Below, in pieces: positions 1 to 6,282 of a DNA stretch of 7,443 bases. How positions within the stretch are numbered: position 1 is the stretch's first letter; each line of letters opens with the position of its first letter. Origin of the DNA: Pseudomonadaceae bacterium UBA5811 (lineage in GTDB: Bacteria; Pseudomonadota; Gammaproteobacteria; Pseudomonadales; Pseudomonadaceae); contig DIDB01000019.1 of the NCBI GenBank assembly GCA_002417905.1, forward strand, positions 1 to 7,443, in the 5' to 3' direction. The notes beneath the pieces are model-generated. The model saw nothing but the letters and a program-made list of their open reading frames with translations, ran no database searches and was not told where the DNA came from. The translations under genes and the position numbers were made by a program.

Positions 1-734
1 TCACGGATGCGCTGCCAGTAGCTGTCCGGACGCACAATCACCCCGCCCGCCCCCTGGATCGGCTCGGCCACAAAGCCCGCCACCCGGCCCTCGCCCAGTC
101 CAAGGATTTTTTGCTCCTCCTGCTCGGCCACCCGGATGCCAAAGGCCTCCGGATCTTCATCGCCACCCTCGCCATACCAGTACGGCTGGTCAATATGGGC
201 AAAGCCGGGCAGCAGGCCGGCCTGCTGGTGCATGGCCTTCATCCCGCCCAGGCTGGCCCCGGCCAGGGTGGAGCCGTGATAGCCATTCCAGCGGCTGATG
301 ACCACCTGCTTCTCCGGACGGCCCAGGGTCGCCCAGTAATGGCGCACCATCCGCAGGGCCGTATCGTTGGCCTCTGAGCCGGAGCTGGTGAAGAACACAT
401 GATTCATGCCCTCCGGGGCCAGCCGGGCGATTTCCCGGGCCAGCTCCAGGGCCGGGGCGTGGGCCGTCTGGAAAAACAGGTTGTAGTACGGCAGCTCACG
501 CATCTGCCGGCTGGCCGCCTCCACCAGCTCCTCGCGGCCATAGCCGAGGTTGACGCACCACAGCCCGGCCATGCCGTCCAGGATGCGGTTGCCTTCGCTG
601 TCCCACAGGTAGACCCCGGAGGCCCGGGTGATGATACGGGCTCCTTTGGCATTCAGGGTCCGGTAATCGGTAAAGGGCGACAGCAGATGGTCGCGCCCCA
701 GCTCCTGCCAGTAACGGGTGTTATTCGCGCTCAT
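1..734 (-). CDS. spuC: Putrescine aminotransferase, class III PLP-dependent (SpuC-like), 3' end outside window
   Basis: This enzyme likely transfers an amino group from putrescine (or a related diamine) to pyruvate, giving 4-aminobutanal and alanine in the cytoplasm. The window holds the N-terminal 244 codons, a little over half of a family length of about 455 residues. Visible class III features are the N-terminal 'LDGMAGLWCVNLGYG' block (52-66), the PLP-phosphate motif TSSGSEANDT (116-125), the WNGYHGST segment (149-156) whose aromatic residue stacks on PLP, and AEPIQGAGGV (223-232). The PLP-aspartate and Schiff-base lysine lie beyond the left edge, so catalytic completeness cannot be judged. 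The start ATG at 734 has GGAGAG seven bases upstream and lies 12 bp after the synthetase stop, so it is the third gene of the operon. A different omega-amine:pyruvate specificity is possible, but the neighbours favour putrescine. Confidence 0.9.
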   Translation of the reverse strand, partial: MSANNTRYWQELGRDHLLSPFTDYRTLNAKGARIITRASGVYLWDSEGNRILDGMAGLWCVNLGYGREELVEAASRQMRELPYYNLFFQTAHAPALELAREIARLAPEGMNHVFFTSSGSEANDTALRMVRHYWATLGRPEKQVVISRWNGYHGSTLAGASLGGMKAMHQQAGLLPGFAHIDQPYWYGEGGDEDPEAFGIRVAEQEEQKILGLGEGRVAGFVAEPIQGAGGVIVRPDSYWQRIR

Positions 735-746
735 GATGGACTCTCC

Positions 747-2102
747 CTACACCGACAGCATCAGGAACTCCCGTTCCCAGGAGCTTATAATCCGGTTAAA
801 GTTTTCCTGCTCGGCCCGCTTGACGGCAATATAGCCGGCCAGAAACTGCGGACTCAGATAGGTTTCCAGCGCCTGGCAGCCTTCCATGCGGTCAAGGGCG
901 GAGGGCAGGGACAGCGGCAGGCGCAGGCTGCGCCGTTCGTGGCTGCGGCCCTGGACCGGCGGGCTGGGCGTCAGCTGCTCGACCATGCCGATATAACCAC
1001 ACAGCAGGCTGGCGGCAATCGCCAGATAGGGATTGGCATCAGCCCCCGGCAGACGGTTTTCCACCCGGCGGTTCTGCGGACCGGATTCCGGCACCCGCAG
1101 GCCGGCGGTGCGGTTTTCCTCACCCCACTCCACGTTGACCGGTGCCGAAGTCCCGGGCTGGAACCGGCGGAACGAATTGACATTGGGGGCAAACAGCGGC
1201 AGCAGCTCCGGAATGTATTTCTGCAGGCCACCCACATGCTGCAGAAACAGCCGGCTCATCGAGCCATCCGGATTGGAAAACACGCTCTGCCCTTCGGCAT
1301 CCACCACGCTCTGGTGCAGGTGCATGGCACTGCCCGGCTCGCCGGTCATCGGCTTGGCCATAAAAGTAGCGGCCACATTGTGCTTGAGCGCCGCTTCGCG
1401 CATGGTGCGCTTGAATACCAGGATCTGGTCGGCCAGATGCAGCGGATCACCATGACGGAAGTTGATTTCCATCTGGGCGGTGCCTTCCTCATGGATCAGG
1501 GTATCCAGATCCAGCCCCTGGGCCTCGCACCAGTCGTACATATCCTCGAACAGCGGATCAAATTCGTTGGCCGCATCAATGGAGAACGACTGTCGGCCGG
1601 TCTCCTGGCGGCCCGAGCGGCCCACTGGCGGCTGGAACGGCAGGTCCGGATCACCGCAGCGCCGGGTCAGGTAAAACTCCATCTCCGGTGCCACCACCGG
1701 CTGCCAGCCCTGCTCGGCATACAGGCGCAGCACTTTTTTCAGCACATTGCGCGGTGACAGTTCAATAGGCAGGCCGCGCTTGTCATAGGTATCGTGAATC
1801 ACCAGTGCCGTGGGTTCGGCCGCCCAGGGCACCAGAAAGGCCGCGGCCGGATCGGGCCGGCAGAACATGTCGATATCCGCCGGGTCCAGCAGCTGGTAAT
1901 ACAGCCCGGAATCCACCGGATCGCCGGTCACAGTCTGCAGCAGAACCCCCTCCGGCAGGCGCATGCCCTGCTCGACCAGGAATTTGCTGGTGGGGGCAAT
2001 CTTGCCCCGGGCAATGCCGGTCTGGTCACAGATCACACACTCCACCTCGGTGATCCGGCGCTCGCGCAGCCAGCCGGCCAGCTGTTCAAAGGGTGCGTTC
2101 AT
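747..2102 (-). CDS. puuA: Gamma-glutamylpolyamine synthetase, glutamine-synthetase family (PuuA/SpuI-like)
   Basis: A 451-residue glutamine-synthetase-fold enzyme that likely joins glutamate to putrescine (or another polyamine) using ATP, the first step of the gamma-glutamylated route. Family motifs occur in order: an N-terminal beta-grasp segment with CDQTGIARGK (25-34), metal-binding EMEFYL (140-145), HEEGTAQMEIN (204-214), MHLHQS (260-265), NVEWGEENRTAGLRVP (323-338) and RVENRLPGADANPYL (346-360). No NLYDLP adenylylation motif of ammonia-assimilating GlnA is seen near the C-terminus, and the flanking polyamine genes point the same way. The frame stays open upstream to 2216, but the start at 2102 is preferred. 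It has GGGAGGG a few bases upstream, it begins the conserved domain, and its ATG shares one base with the stop of the upstream hydrolase (TGATG), which suggests translational coupling. Whether putrescine, spermidine or diaminopropane is the best substrate cannot be read from the sequence. Confidence 0.9.
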   Translation of the reverse strand: MNAPFEQLAGWLRERRITEVECVICDQTGIARGKIAPTSKFLVEQGMRLPEGVLLQTVTGDPVDSGLYYQLLDPADIDMFCRPDPAAAFLVPWAAEPTALVIHDTYDKRGLPIELSPRNVLKKVLRLYAEQGWQPVVAPEMEFYLTRRCGDPDLPFQPPVGRSGRQETGRQSFSIDAANEFDPLFEDMYDWCEAQGLDLDTLIHEEGTAQMEINFRHGDPLHLADQILVFKRTMREAALKHNVAATFMAKPMTGEPGSAMHLHQSVVDAEGQSVFSNPDGSMSRLFLQHVGGLQKYIPELLPLFAPNVNSFRRFQPGTSAPVNVEWGEENRTAGLRVPESGPQNRRVENRLPGADANPYLAIAASLLCGYIGMVEQLTPSPPVQGRSHERRSLRLPLSLPSALDRMEGCQALETYLSPQFLAGYIAVKRAEQENFNRIISSWEREFLMLSV

Positions 2103-2866
2103 CAAGCCCTCCCGGCCTGCTGGCGATGTCCGGCCCGGGCCTGGCAGGCCCGGGCAAAGCCCTGAAATATGGCCAGATAATGCGGATGCTGCTGCACCTG
2201 CCATTCCGGATGCCACTGTACGCCCAGGGCAAAGCCTTGCGCCGTACTGACGCTAAACGCCTCCACCAGACCATCCGGGGCCAGTGCTTCAACCCGCAGC
2301 CCTTCGGCCAGCCGGTCCACCCCCTGGCCATGCACGGAGTTGACCTGGAAATGCGCCGGCAGACCCAGTCGCTCCAGGACACCACCGGGCTGGCGCTGTA
2401 CCGGGTGGCGGGCGGCATACTGCAGCGCTACCGGATCCGCCGGATTTTCCCGGTGATCCTGGTAAGGCCCAACCTCATGAACCTGCTGGTGCAGGGTGCC
2501 ACCAAAGGCCACGTTCATTTCCTGAAAGCCCCGGCAGATCCCCAGCAGCGGCACACCGGCCACCACTGCCGCCCGGATCAGGGGCAGGGTCAGCGCGTCC
2601 CGCTGCGGATCGTGCAGCGTTCCCGGTGCGCTGGGGGTGCCCCGGTAGTGCTGGGGCTCCACATTGGACGGCGAGCCGGTCAGCAGCAGGCCATCCAGCT
2701 GCGCCAGCAGGTCCGGCGGCTCCATCAGCCCGGGCAGCGCCGGGATGATCAGGGGCATTCCGGCCAGGGCTGCCGCCCGCAGGTACTTGTCACCGGCCAT
2801 ATGGAACAGGTGCTGGCCGGCCTGGTGGGTACAGGCTGAAACGCCAATCAGTGGCACAGGGGTCAT
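2102..2866 (-). CDS. puuD: Gamma-glutamyl-GABA hydrolase, class I glutamine amidotransferase-like (PuuD/SpuA-like)
   Basis: A 254-residue cytoplasmic peptidase C26 / class I glutamine amidotransferase-like protein that likely cleaves gamma-glutamyl-GABA to glutamate and GABA, closing the gamma-glutamylated putrescine route. The nucleophile elbow is LLGICRGFQEMN with Cys111. The second half of the triad is VQWHPEW with His219 and Glu221. The oxyanion-side LLLTGSPSNVEP (60-71) and the FQVNSVHGQGVDRLAEGL segment (173-190) are typical of PuuD proteins. Length matches E. coli PuuD. The ATG at 2866 has AAGGAA about eight bases upstream and is the first gene after the divergent control region, so it should lead the minus-strand operon. 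Its stop overlaps the synthetase start by one base. The Ala/Gln/Arg-rich last 15 residues look like an unconserved tail. Confidence 0.92.
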   Translation of the reverse strand: MTPVPLIGVSACTHQAGQHLFHMAGDKYLRAAALAGMPLIIPALPGLMEPPDLLAQLDGLLLTGSPSNVEPQHYRGTPSAPGTLHDPQRDALTLPLIRAAVVAGVPLLGICRGFQEMNVAFGGTLHQQVHEVGPYQDHRENPADPVALQYAARHPVQRQPGGVLERLGLPAHFQVNSVHGQGVDRLAEGLRVEALAPDGLVEAFSVSTAQGFALGVQWHPEWQVQQHPHYLAIFQGFARACQARAGHRQQAGRA

Positions 2867-3082
2867 GGGGCCGTTTCCTTTTCCGCGAAGCCATTGACTG
2901 AGGTTAGTGGGCGACCGGCGTTTTACAACCGGCGTACCAGTCTGCCCGCACTTCGTGAATAACCGGTGACGGGCGGGCTGGTCCGGCGGCCATGGGCCCG
3001 TTACCCTGACGGATACACCGTCCTGGTGCTGTAAAAGTACCGGCGTTTACTCTGCAGACCGATTCCAGACTCCGGAGCCCAC
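2867..3082. promoter_or_regulatory. Divergent intergenic control region between puuD operon and aguBA
   Basis: This 216-bp gap is the largest in the window and must hold the promoters for the minus-strand puuD operon and the plus-strand aguBA genes. No strong sigma-70 promoter stands out. A weak plus-strand candidate is CTGACG (3006-3011) and TGTAAA (3030-3035) with an 18-bp spacer. The same TGTAAA hexamer occurs on the minus strand (2927-2922), facing puuD, without a clear -35 box. Other visible structure is a 5-bp inverted repeat GACGG-ATACA-CCGTC (3008-3022), a GTAAA/TTTAC inverted pair (3031-3050), and three copies of ACCGGCG. The region is presumably where a polyamine- or agmatine-responsive regulator acts, but no regulator gene is in the window. 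Confidence 0.55.
2914..2934. repeat. Direct repeat ACCGGCG-N7-ACCGGCG, possible operator
   Basis: Two identical ACCGGCG heptamers start 14 bp apart (2914-2920 and 2928-2934), separated by TTTTACA. A third copy lies at 3039-3045 in the aguB leader, followed by TTTAC much as the first copy is followed by TTTTAC. The placement between divergent genes suits a regulator site. However, CCGG words are very common throughout this genome segment, so chance recurrence is a real alternative. Confidence 0.3.
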
Positions 3083-3964
3083 ATGACCCGAACCGTCAGC
3101 GTTGCCGCCACCCAGATGGCCTGCACCCCGGATACCCGGCAGAATATCGCCCGCGCCGAACAGCTGGTTCGCCAGGCCGCCGCGCAGGGCGCCAGGATCA
3201 TCCTGCTGCAGGAGCTGTTCGAAACCCCCTATTTCTGCCAGAAACCGGAAGCGGGCCATCTGGCGCTGGCCACCACACTGGAAGACAACCCGGCCATCCG
3301 GCATTTCCGCCAGCTGGCCGCCGAACTGCAGGTGGTGCTGCCGGTCAGCTTCTTCGAACGCTGCGGCCAGGCCCGCTTTAACAGCGTGGCGGTGCTGGAT
3401 GCCGATGGCCGCTGCCTCGGCCTGTACCGCAAAAGCCATATTCCGGATGGCCCCGGCTACCATGAAAAATATTATTTCAGCCCCGGTGATACCGGCTTCC
3501 GGGTCTGGCAGACCCGTTATGCCCGGATCGGCGTCGGCATCTGCTGGGACCAGTGGTTTCCCGAGTCGGCCCGCTGCATGGCCCTGCTGGGTGCCGAGCT
3601 GCTGTTTTACCCCACTGCCATTGGCAGCGAACCCCATGATCCGTCCATCCAGTCCCGTGATCACTGGCAACGGGTCCAGCAGGGCCACGCTGCTGCCAAC
3701 CTGATGCCACTGATTGCCAGTAACCGTACCGGTACCGAACACCAGCAGGACTACCAGATCACCTTTTATGGCTCCTCCTTTATCACCGACGCCAGCGGCG
3801 CCCGGCTGGCCTGTCTGGACGAGGATGAGGAAGGGGTGCTGGTCCAGGCCTTTGATCTGGAGCAGCTGGAAAAAAACCGCAGCGCCTGGGGCGTGTTCCG
3901 CGACCGGCGGCCCGGACTGTACGGCCCGCTGAATACCCTGGACGGCCAGCGGCCTTCGGTCTGA
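3083..3964 (+). CDS. aguB: N-carbamoylputrescine amidohydrolase, nitrilase superfamily (AguB)
   Basis: A 293-residue carbon-nitrogen hydrolase that converts N-carbamoylputrescine to putrescine, CO2 and ammonia, the second step of the agmatine deiminase route. The nitrilase catalytic set is complete: Glu44 in LLQELFET, Lys117 in LYRKSHIP, and Cys154 in [10 protein letters not shown]. AguB-type features include [19 protein letters not shown] (121-139), [10 protein letters not shown] (175-184), [13 protein letters not shown] (194-206) and SNRTGTE (213-219). Length matches the family. The ATG at 3083 has GGAG with a 5-bp gap, and the reading begins directly with the conserved first strand. It is the first plus-strand gene after the divergent region and lies 13 bp upstream of aguA, so the two form an operon. 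Function is very secure because both enzymes of the pathway are adjacent. Confidence 0.96.
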
Positions 3965-3977
3965 GCGGAGACCGGCC

Positions 3978-5084
3978 ATGATGACCCTGAACACCACGCC
4001 CCATGATGACGGCTTTTACATGCCCGCCGAATGGGCGCCCCACCGCCAGACCTGGATGCTCTGGCCCGAGCGGCCGGACAACTGGCGGCTGGGCGCCAAG
4101 CCCGCCCAGGCCGCGTTTGCGCGGGTAGCGCTGGCCATTGCCCGCTTCGAGCCGGTCAGTGTCGGCGTGTCTGCCGCCCAGTACGCCAATGCCTGTGCCC
4201 GGCTGGCGCACCCGGCCATCCGGGTGGTGGAGCTGTCCAGTGATGATGCCTGGATCCGGGATACCGGCCCGACCTTTGTCATCAACCGGCGCGGCAACGT
4301 GCGTGGTGTGGACTGGACCTTCAACGCCTGGGGCGGCCTGCAGGGCGGGCTGTACTGGCCGTGGCAGCGTGACGACCAGCTGGCCGGCAAGATCCTGCAG
4401 CTGGAAGGCTGTCCCCGCTACCGTACCGGGCACTTTGTGCTGGAAGGCGGCGCCATCCATGTGGACGGCGAGGGCACCCTGCTGACCACTGAAGAATGCC
4501 TGCTCAACCCCAACCGCAATCCGCAGTACAACCGCGGGCAGATCAGCCGGCAGCTGGCCAGCCAGCTGGGCGTGGAACGGATCATCTGGCTGCCCCGGGG
4601 ACTGGCCGATGATGAAACCGATGGCCATATCGACAACTTCTGCTGCTTTGTCCGGCCCGGTGAAGTGCTGCTGGCCTGGACCGATGACCCGGCCAGTCCC
4701 AATTACCGGCGCTGCCGGGAAGCCCTGGCGGTACTGGAGCGCAGCCGGGATGCCCGGAACCGGCCCCTGCAGGTCCACCGGCTGCCCCTGCCAGTCCCCC
4801 TGCTGGCCAGCGAAGACGAGTGTGCCAGCATCGACCCGGTTCCCGGCAGCCAGCCCCGCCGGCCCGGCCAGCCGCTGGCGGCCTCTTACGTGAACTTCCT
4901 GATCGTCAATGGCGGCATCATCGCCCCGGCCTTTGCTGATCCGGCCGACCTGCAGGCCGCGCAGATCCTGCAGCGCTGCTTTCCCGGACGGGAGGTGGTG
5001 ATGCTGCCCGGCCGGGAAATCCTGCTGGGCGGCGGCAACATTCACTGCATTACCCAGCAGCAGCCGGCTGGCCAGCCCGGCTGA
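3978..5084 (+). CDS. aguA: Agmatine deiminase (AguA)
   Basis: A 368-residue guanidine-modifying enzyme (peptidylarginine-deiminase fold) that hydrolyses agmatine to N-carbamoylputrescine and ammonia. Family signatures are [20 protein letters not shown] (11-30), the substrate-binding [12 protein letters not shown] (89-100), FNAWGG (115-120), [25 protein letters not shown] starting at 152, and [10 protein letters not shown] (212-221), which contains the catalytic His217. The nucleophile is Cys357 in [13 protein letters not shown]. Length equals the usual family size. Two ATGs are in tandem. The first (3978) has GGAG with a 7-bp gap and gives the N-terminus expected for the family. The gene follows aguB by 13 bp, and a GC-rich inverted repeat covers its stop codon. 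Confidence 0.96.
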
Positions 5085-5091: not shown

Positions 5092-5130
5092 CAGACTATG
5101 CCGGACATCCAGCCAAGAGGAGTAATCCCC

Positions 5131-5583
5131 ATGAAAGCACTGATCACCGGCAGCCTGCTGCTCGGCACCGTCCTGCTGGCCCGGGCAGACAGCCTGGCTC
5201 CGGAAAAACAGGTGGAGTACCGCCAGGCCGGCTACCGCTATATGGCCTGGAATATGGGCCGGATCAAGGAGCAGCTGGATGGCGGCCACTACGATGCCAG
5301 GCAGGTACAGGCCGCCGCCGGAGCCATTGCGTCCATCGCCAGCTCCGGCATGGGTGCCCTGTATGGCCCCGGCACGGCAACGGACAAACTGGGCGACAAA
5401 ACCCGGCTGAAACCGGAGTTTTTTGCCCAGCGGGACAAGGCCGCCCAGCTGGCCGGCGAGCTCAACACGGCTACCCGGAAACTGGCCAGCGCAGCGGCCA
5501 AAGGCGACAGGGATGCCCTCAGGATCGCCTTCGGTGAAACCGGGGCCGCCTGCAAGGCCTGCTACAGCGCCTTCCGCAACTGA
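5131..5583 (+). CDS. Periplasmic cytochrome c' with variant heme motif (CxxCY instead of CxxCH)
   Basis: A 150-residue exported protein of the cytochrome c' family: four-helix-bundle, high-spin heme proteins known to bind NO and CO. Residues 1-19 form a signal peptide (KAL, hydrophobic core, ARA|D cleavage site). Helix A carries EYRQAGYRYMAWNMGRIK (29-46), which aligns with the YRQ...M...GR helix of known members. The C-terminal motif is CKACYSAFRN (141-150). Both heme-linking cysteines (141, 144), the inner Lys-Ala and the following Arg149 fit the family, but the axial His is Tyr145 (codon TAC, 5563-5565). The only His in the mature chain is His53, far from the motif. The ATG at 5131 is chosen over the in-frame ATG at 5098 because it has AAGAGGAG with an 8-bp gap and starts the signal peptide. 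It follows aguA by 46 bp on the same strand and may be co-transcribed. Family assignment is firm; heme ligation and maturation are in doubt. Confidence 0.88.
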   Translation: MKALITGSLLLGTVLLARADSLAPEKQVEYRQAGYRYMAWNMGRIKEQLDGGHYDARQVQAAAGAIASIASSGMGALYGPGTATDKLGDKTRLKPEFFAQRDKAAQLAGELNTATRKLASAAAKGDRDALRIAFGETGAACKACYSAFRN

Positions 5584-5586
5584 GGC

Positions 5587-6282
5587 TTACCAGTCCGGCA
5601 CTCCGGCGGCCGGGGGCGGTACAGCCACCCGCCACTCCGGCCACATCTGGACCGCCATCACCAGCAGCGCCGCCAGCAGCAGGGCCAGGCTGGCCCGGCT
5701 CCAGCCACCCCCACGGGCATCCTGCTGGCCGGCCCCCGTCTTCGGCATCCGGCCGGTCAGCATGGCCCGCAGCAGGGGCCGTCGCCTGATCCGGACATAA
5801 AACAGGATGGCCAGCAGATGCAGACTGATCATCCCCAGCAGCCAGGGCCAGAGCTGCCGGTGCAGCCGGGTCAGCGCCTGGCTGGTATCCGGACTGGCCA
5901 GCGGCTGCAGCGGGCCGTGAAAGGCAATCTCATCATCGGCCAGCAGACCCGTGGCCAGTTGCAGGGCCAGCAGCCCCAGCAGGGCCAGAACGGCCAGCAC
6001 TCCCGCCGGACTGTGGCCCGGCCGCCGCCAGCGACCCTGCAGCTCCTCCCGGAGACCGGGCAGCGTGGCCAGCAGGTAACGCCAGCGGGCATAGCCGGAA
6101 CCCCATAACCCCCAGAGCAGCCGGAAAACCAGCAGGCCCAGAACGGCCAGCCCCAGCCGTCCGTGCCAGGGCATCAGGTTGCCGCCCAGCCAGCCCGTCA
6201 GCAGGGCTCCGCCGACACTGGCAGCCAGCAGCCAGTGGAACAGGCGCAATGGCCCGTCCCAGACCCGGAATGATTCGGACAT
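5587..6282 (-). CDS. Cytochrome b561, inner-membrane diheme electron carrier
   Basis: A 231-residue membrane protein of the bacterial cytochrome b561 / Ni-Fe hydrogenase b-type family, which passes electrons between quinol and periplasmic acceptors. Hydrophobic segments lie near residues 14-33, 42-60, 94-114, 145-163 and a C-terminal 197-214. Candidate heme-iron histidines are His16 (LFHW), His40 (PWHGRLG), His141 (RLHRQLW) and His155 (SLHLLAI). The GHSPAG (89-94) and TGLLADDEIAFHGPL (111-125) segments are characteristic of this family. The start at 6282 has GGGGGAG with a 9-bp gap. It lies 19 bp after the aldehyde dehydrogenase stop on the same strand, so it is probably the last gene of that operon. 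It converges on the cytochrome c' gene with 3 bp between stop codons. Cytochrome b561 is a plausible electron donor to cytochrome c', but this is inference. Confidence 0.9.
   Translation of the reverse strand: MSESFRVWDGPLRLFHWLLAASVGGALLTGWLGGNLMPWHGRLGLAVLGLLVFRLLWGLWGSGYARWRYLLATLPGLREELQGRWRRPGHSPAGVLAVLALLGLLALQLATGLLADDEIAFHGPLQPLASPDTSQALTRLHRQLWPWLLGMISLHLLAILFYVRIRRRPLLRAMLTGRMPKTGAGQQDARGGGWSRASLALLLAALLVMAVQMWPEWRVAVPPPAAGVPDW

Follow-up and report, generated by a model that had tools for sequence, protein, structure and literature searches.

A cytochrome c' is expected to carry a C-terminal CxxCH motif whose histidine is the axial heme ligand. The locus studied here encodes Cys-Lys-Ala-Cys-Tyr in that place, raising the question of whether the tyrosine serves as ligand of a covalently bound heme, whether the protein has lost its ligand, or whether the organism really has a histidine at this position. 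The window (the whole stretch of DNA analysed) is 7,443 bases long and corresponds to an entire contig (C58) of a draft genome (G000) of 1.88 Mb in 241 contigs, which is 70% complete and 1.6% contaminated. The features of the window are collected in Table 1.

Table 1. Genes of the window and positions discussed in the cytochrome c' gene.
Feature	Position	Strand	Basis
Aminotransferase end	3-734	-	named by eye
Glutamine-synthetase-like	747-2108	-	Pfam scan
C26 peptidase	2102-2866	-	Pfam scan
Carbon-nitrogen hydrolase	3083-3964	+	Pfam scan
Agmatine-deiminase-like protein	3978-5084	+	PAD_porph
Cytochrome c' gene (class II c-type cytochrome, 150 aa, stop codon within span)	5131..5583	+	PF01322 profile match; AlphaFold model
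Likely signal peptide, cleavage after Ala-Arg-Ala	5131..5187	+	read by eye
Heme-attachment motif, Cys-Lys-Ala-Cys-Tyr instead of CxxCH	5551..5565	+	sequence; homologue comparison
Tyr145, TAC, axial-ligand position	5563..5565	+	relatives' loci: CAC 38/42, CAT 4/42
Ser146, AGC, mostly Asp in close relatives (= Asp121 of Alcaligenes cytochrome c', which pairs with the axial His)	5566..5568	+	alignment
Arg149, CGC, retained counterpart of Arg124 in Alcaligenes cytochrome c'	5575..5577	+	alignment; numbering by position after motif
Cytochrome b561, tail to tail with cytochrome c' gene	5587..6282	-	PF01292, 71.8 bits
Aldehyde dehydrogenase, open at contig end	6302-7441	-	Pfam scan

The preliminary description of this DNA had called the gene a cytochrome c' with an intact reading frame, and both points were confirmed. 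In a profile search of the window ORFs the protein matched PF01322 with 99.8 bits (cut-off 26.5), residues 27-149 aligning with positions 2-121 of the 121 in the profile, an extent that makes a chance assignment untenable. The AlphaFold model (mean pLDDT 87, pTM 0.79) shows the four-helix bundle of the family, and its closest PDB structures, 3vrc and 1bbh, are both cytochromes c'. The frame is open from the ATG at 5131 to the stop at 5581-5583, with no frameshift, premature stop or truncation, so that the disrupted frame expected of a pseudogene is absent; a ribosome-binding-like AAGAGGAG, read by eye, lies upstream at 5115-5122. By sequence, the window protein is a cytochrome c' homologue, its standing as a cytochrome being only putative.

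Positions 5551-5580 read TGC AAG GCC TGC TAC AGC GCC TTC CGC AAC, that is CKACYSAFRN, followed by the stop, and the tyrosine noticed earlier is therefore what the sequence encodes. The rest of the motif had been described as intact, and this holds for both cysteines, Lys142 and Arg149 (the alignment to the PDB sequences ends on it), but not for the residue after the axial position, which is an unusual serine. The invariant Tyr35 is kept too; its counterpart in the Allochromatium chain is residue 16, a position that presumably has the distal role in cytochromes c'. At the position of Ser146, 35 of the 36 other family sequences have Asp, and of the 138 His-bearing homologues 132 carry Asp directly after the axial histidine, with Glu and Lys in 3 each. 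Overall, Ser-Ala follows the motif of the window protein where close relatives mostly have Asp-Lys or Asp-Gln. The available text of PMC4163637 describes a hydrogen bond between the axial His120 of the Alcaligenes xylosoxidans cytochrome c' and Asp121 when NO is bound, and has Arg124 shaping the proximal pocket; the window protein has lost the equivalents of both His120 and Asp121 and retains that of Arg124. The Asp-to-Ser change was considered as proof of a long-standing ligand loss, an argument weakened by the finding that serine directly follows the histidine in 3 of the 110 phylum loci read, which indicates that the Asp can go before the His.

To what extent the tyrosine is shared was judged on overlapping sets of homologous proteins and of relatives', family and phylum loci. 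Among 141 homologous proteins (31 plus the best 120 of 3817 from two overlapping protein searches), 138 had CxxCH, 2 lacked the motif region and the single CxxCY was that of the window itself. CxxCH was also found in all 42 relatives' loci read among the 59 matches besides the window's, in 30 of 30 further family loci (drawn from 352 genomes with a PF01322 match, some repeating the same genes) and in 110 of 110 phylum loci, mostly the higher-scoring among PF01322 matches listed from 299 genomes of the phylum, with at least one locus repeating a family locus. Conservation of CxxCY among relatives was thus seen in none of the 138 homologues, 42 relatives' loci or 110 phylum loci.

When residues 106-150 were used as a protein query, the only CxxCY retrieved, one of five candidates, was the window protein itself. 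In a genome collection of 84,980 species the GC-preferred pattern CK[small]CYxx[FY]R matched 21 times, and going by frame, context and length of the ORF none of these is a cytochrome c'; this pattern is about half sensitive, since its His counterpart would recover 20 of the 42 known loci. The His counterpart of a fully degenerate pattern recovers 42 of 42, and the pattern itself matched in 9 of the 398 family genomes scanned (PF01322 being present in 352 of them), the 8 besides the window's not being cytochromes c' on the same grounds. When a slightly narrower pattern was applied to the class, 20 places were found in 18 of 369 genomes, with a cytochrome c' only at the window's. All these patterns demand Lys at place 2 of the motif, limited residues at place 3 and Phe or Tyr at place 8. 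No confirmed relative appeared among the 204 pattern matches of a protein-based search of the genome collection, viral contigs held no relatives of the window protein, and plasmids gave two distant matches (42.9% and 29.5% identity). At 90% identity the window protein falls in a cluster (P0001) of 5 member sequences, of which the representative alone was examined. A literature search of one open-licence library found neither CXXCY together with heme nor "tyrosine-ligated" with a c-type heme. In the sets and pattern scans examined, the sole genome with a CxxCY cytochrome c' was therefore this 70%-complete draft.

A variant from one draft metagenome assembly could be a base or consensus error in an organism that really has CxxCH, an explanation that we consider rather unlikely, albeit a serious contender. 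It would suit an assembly that is 70% complete and split into 241 contigs, one of which makes up the whole window, as well as a gene that is otherwise unbroken and in which a single base separates TAC from the relatives' commonest codon. The adjacent codons, however, differ too, and a single wrong base would not account for those differences; this weighs mildly against an isolated error, an argument that the phylum loci with Ser beside His soften in turn. Also speaking against an error, the six other scanned genes of the contig have open frames over their Pfam domains.

Same-genus genomes provided closer comparisons. The G001 protein (57% identity) has CKACHDQFR and the G002 protein (51% identity) CKSCHDKFR, the latter gene lying at the same place, between an agmatine-deiminase-like gene and cytochrome b561; other named close homologues come from Azotobacter, Stutzerimonas, Halopseudomonas and also Thauera. 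The preliminary description held that histidine in close relatives, or a variant confined to a single isolate, would refute its reading of the tyrosine, and both turned out to be the case: G001, G002 and all motif-bearing homologues read have His, and CxxCY occurs, as far as searched, in one draft genome. The window's genome has one PF01322 match, and a second PF01322 protein of G002 (paralogue L034, contig C30) has the motif CEGCHKEFR. The 99%-complete G003 has no PF01322 match, and the cytochrome c' gene accordingly looks dispensable in the genus.

The genes at 3-5084 look like polyamine/agmatine degradation. G002 has the same order (aminotransferase, glutamine-synthetase-like, C26, hydrolase, deiminase, cytochrome c', b561); a further glutamine-synthetase-like gene separates its C26 and hydrolase genes, and the stretch read gave no match to an aldehyde dehydrogenase. 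Cytochrome b561 adjoins cytochrome c' in 17 of 19 cytochrome c' loci of relatives, tail to tail in 15 of the 19, which suggests that the two may form a conserved functional pair. The b561 of the window keeps all five histidines that are invariant in 17 homologues.

In the cytochrome c' tree the window protein has the longest end branch of the family (0.67). Smaller trees gave the window 0.50 vs 0.15 (G001) and 0.17 (G002) for cytochrome c', 0.31 vs 0.10 and 0.16 for the deiminase, and 0.66 vs 0.33 and 0.33 for cytochrome b561; ratios of window to same-genus branches were 2.9 to 3.4 in cytochrome c' and 2.0 to 3.0 in the other two. With branches roughly two to three times as long as in the same-genus genomes, the three genes indicate that the window lineage is evolving fast, and because the deiminase and b561 branches are long too, most of the excess in cytochrome c' belongs to the lineage, with a modest extra excess left in this gene. 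In cytochrome c' the window sequence departs from 2 of the 26 columns invariant in 36 other sequences; the corresponding figures are 13 of 218 for the deiminase, set against 4 others, and 2 of 34 for b561, set against 17, a rough comparison across sets of different size. The carbon-nitrogen hydrolase, glutamine-synthetase-like and C26 genes, with one homologue each, were left out of it, as was the aldehyde dehydrogenase, whose matches were distant (159 of 293 columns). Neither measure demonstrates decay specific to the cytochrome c' gene, the branch excess being mostly lineage-wide and the invariant-column departures within the range of the neighbours. Among 37 sequences, however, the window protein has the most departures at columns that are at least 95% conserved (6 of 41; the next sequence has 4 of 38), and likewise at columns conserved at 90% (7 of 50). 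Differences at third vs second codon positions were 0.56 vs 0.27 against G001 and 0.41 vs 0.24 against G002, and the codon-position GC of the gene resembles that of its neighbours. We read this as a protein that has apparently been under constraint for most of the time, within a lineage that evolves fast, the loss of the ligand being either recent or tolerated; a mild relaxation of constraint on the gene may have occurred as well.

The explanation that we favour, giving it about an even chance, is a real and probably recent loss of the axial ligand that leaves a likely heme-free protein; that it is probably recent is suggested by the columns invariant in the family, which are otherwise mostly kept. 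The His-to-Tyr change would then be no base error, and the Ccm machinery of the cell would fail on CxxCY, as published work on other His-less motifs leads us to expect. The exported protein would stay apo, its two cysteines probably oxidised to a disulfide, and would no longer bind NO or carry electrons. Alteration of the adjacent second-shell residue (Ser for Asp) argues for such a loss, whereas the lack of any lesion, a share of invariant-column departures in line with the neighbours' and a codon-position GC like theirs argue against it.

Whether CxxCY could be matured bears directly on this. In the window's genome PF01578 is matched three times and CcmH once, counts that G001, G002 and G003 share. 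Two of the PF01578 matches are CcmF and a CcmC-like ORF on contig C240, and the third is a 162-residue ORF on C214; the WGGWWFWD signature of CcmF is the same as in G001. No second CcmF- or CcmH-type protein was found in the assembled 70% of the genome. The PF00034 cytochromes found in it, a diheme protein (C87) and a 110-residue ORF (C195), keep CxxCH. PF00034 is matched 3 times in this 70%-complete genome, and the same-genus genomes have 8, 8 and 12 such matches, so that the organism may possess fewer c-type cytochromes; PF13442 has one match, below the cut-off. Next to the diheme cytochrome c lies a protein (L153, contig C87) with CPHCY, which we take to be DsbA-like; in such proteins CxxCY is presumably commonplace and has nothing to do with heme.

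The available text of PMC4158909 states that residues other than His are recognised solely by specific variants of Systems I or II, and that of PMC8112865 reports H19A and H19K peptides as not attached by HCCS or CcsBA and H19M as attached weakly by HCCS. According to the portion available of PMC12285233, CXXCK sites mostly require special maturation proteins, NrfEFG or NrfI, and a Shewanella CXXCK site may be served by ordinary CcmF with CcmI. In the available text of these biogenesis studies the substitutions covered are Ala, Lys, Met and Arg; tyrosine is not among them, and this, like the weak attachment of Met by HCCS and the possible service of a CXXCK site by ordinary CcmF in Shewanella, counts against the favoured reading.

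The preliminary description had put forward a Tyr-ligated covalent heme, that is, a protein matured by ordinary Ccm in which both cysteines attach heme and Tyr145 is axial, an outcome that we judge improbable. The heme would in that case be ferric and of low potential, ligated as in catalase or HasA but carried by a cytochrome c' fold. The proposal draws on the kept cysteines, Lys142, Arg149, Tyr35 and fold, on the 24 of 26 family-invariant columns retained and on the invariant histidines of the adjacent b561, and joint loss of Asp and His would suit a phenolate with no need of an imidazole partner. Its structural premises, both cysteines and the fold, stand; positive support for the ligation itself did not emerge, the variant being known from one assembly. 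The histidines of G001 and G002, the single CcmF and CcmH in the assembled 70% of the genome and, within the text available of PMC4158909 and PMC12285233, the rule on His and the special proteins mostly needed by CXXCK sites all go against it. The fallbacks offered in the same description, an inactivating mutation or a base error, are both likelier.

Slightly less probable again is a repurposed, heme-free four-helix bundle in which the CxxC would be a disulfide or a metal- or heme-sensing site. Retention of the CxxC pair and fold after loss of the ligand is consistent with it, as is the competition between CXXC oxidation and heme attachment in apocytochromes described in the available text of PMC3420020. 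On the other side, no relative has the change in common with the window protein, and its family-invariant columns are still largely kept.

Among known proteins, the nearest are the cytochromes c' of Allochromatium vinosum (which we take to be the organism of 1bbh) and Thermochromatium tepidum (3vrc), with 54-55% identity over 128-129 columns and the same four-helix fold as the window model (TM to target 0.89-0.90). Both sequences have a tyrosine at the same distal position as the window protein, but CxxCH with a His axial ligand in place of its CxxCY. The Alcaligenes xylosoxidans cytochrome c' has the same fold at 32-36% identity, and its engineered pocket variants in the PDB comprise D121A/Q/I and the R124 and L16 series; among the 50 PDB matches listed, none is by title an axial-His variant of a cytochrome c'. 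Catalase and HasA contain b-type hemes with a Tyr ligand, not known to be covalently bound via CxxC, on unrelated folds; a proximal phenolate would be common to them and the window protein if the latter were Tyr-ligated. In cytochrome c nitrite reductase (NrfA), as in the window protein, position five of the motif is naturally occupied by a residue other than His. That residue is Lys, a usual NrfA feature matured by NrfEFG or NrfI in the species investigated, with CcmF and CcmI as possible substitutes in Shewanella, according to the available text of PMC12285233, whereas the window protein has Tyr and a genome in whose assembled part no second CcmF or CcmH was found.

If the protein did hold a Tyr-ligated c-type heme, it would contradict the rule by which ordinary biogenesis takes CxxCH alone and would offer a natural test of the effect of the proximal ligand on the NO, CO and peroxide chemistry of cytochrome c'. 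If the ligand has been lost, the likelier case, the locus would represent a clean natural ligand loss in a gene otherwise open, beside a b561 that keeps its histidines, and would be a caution against annotating the window protein as a working cytochrome.
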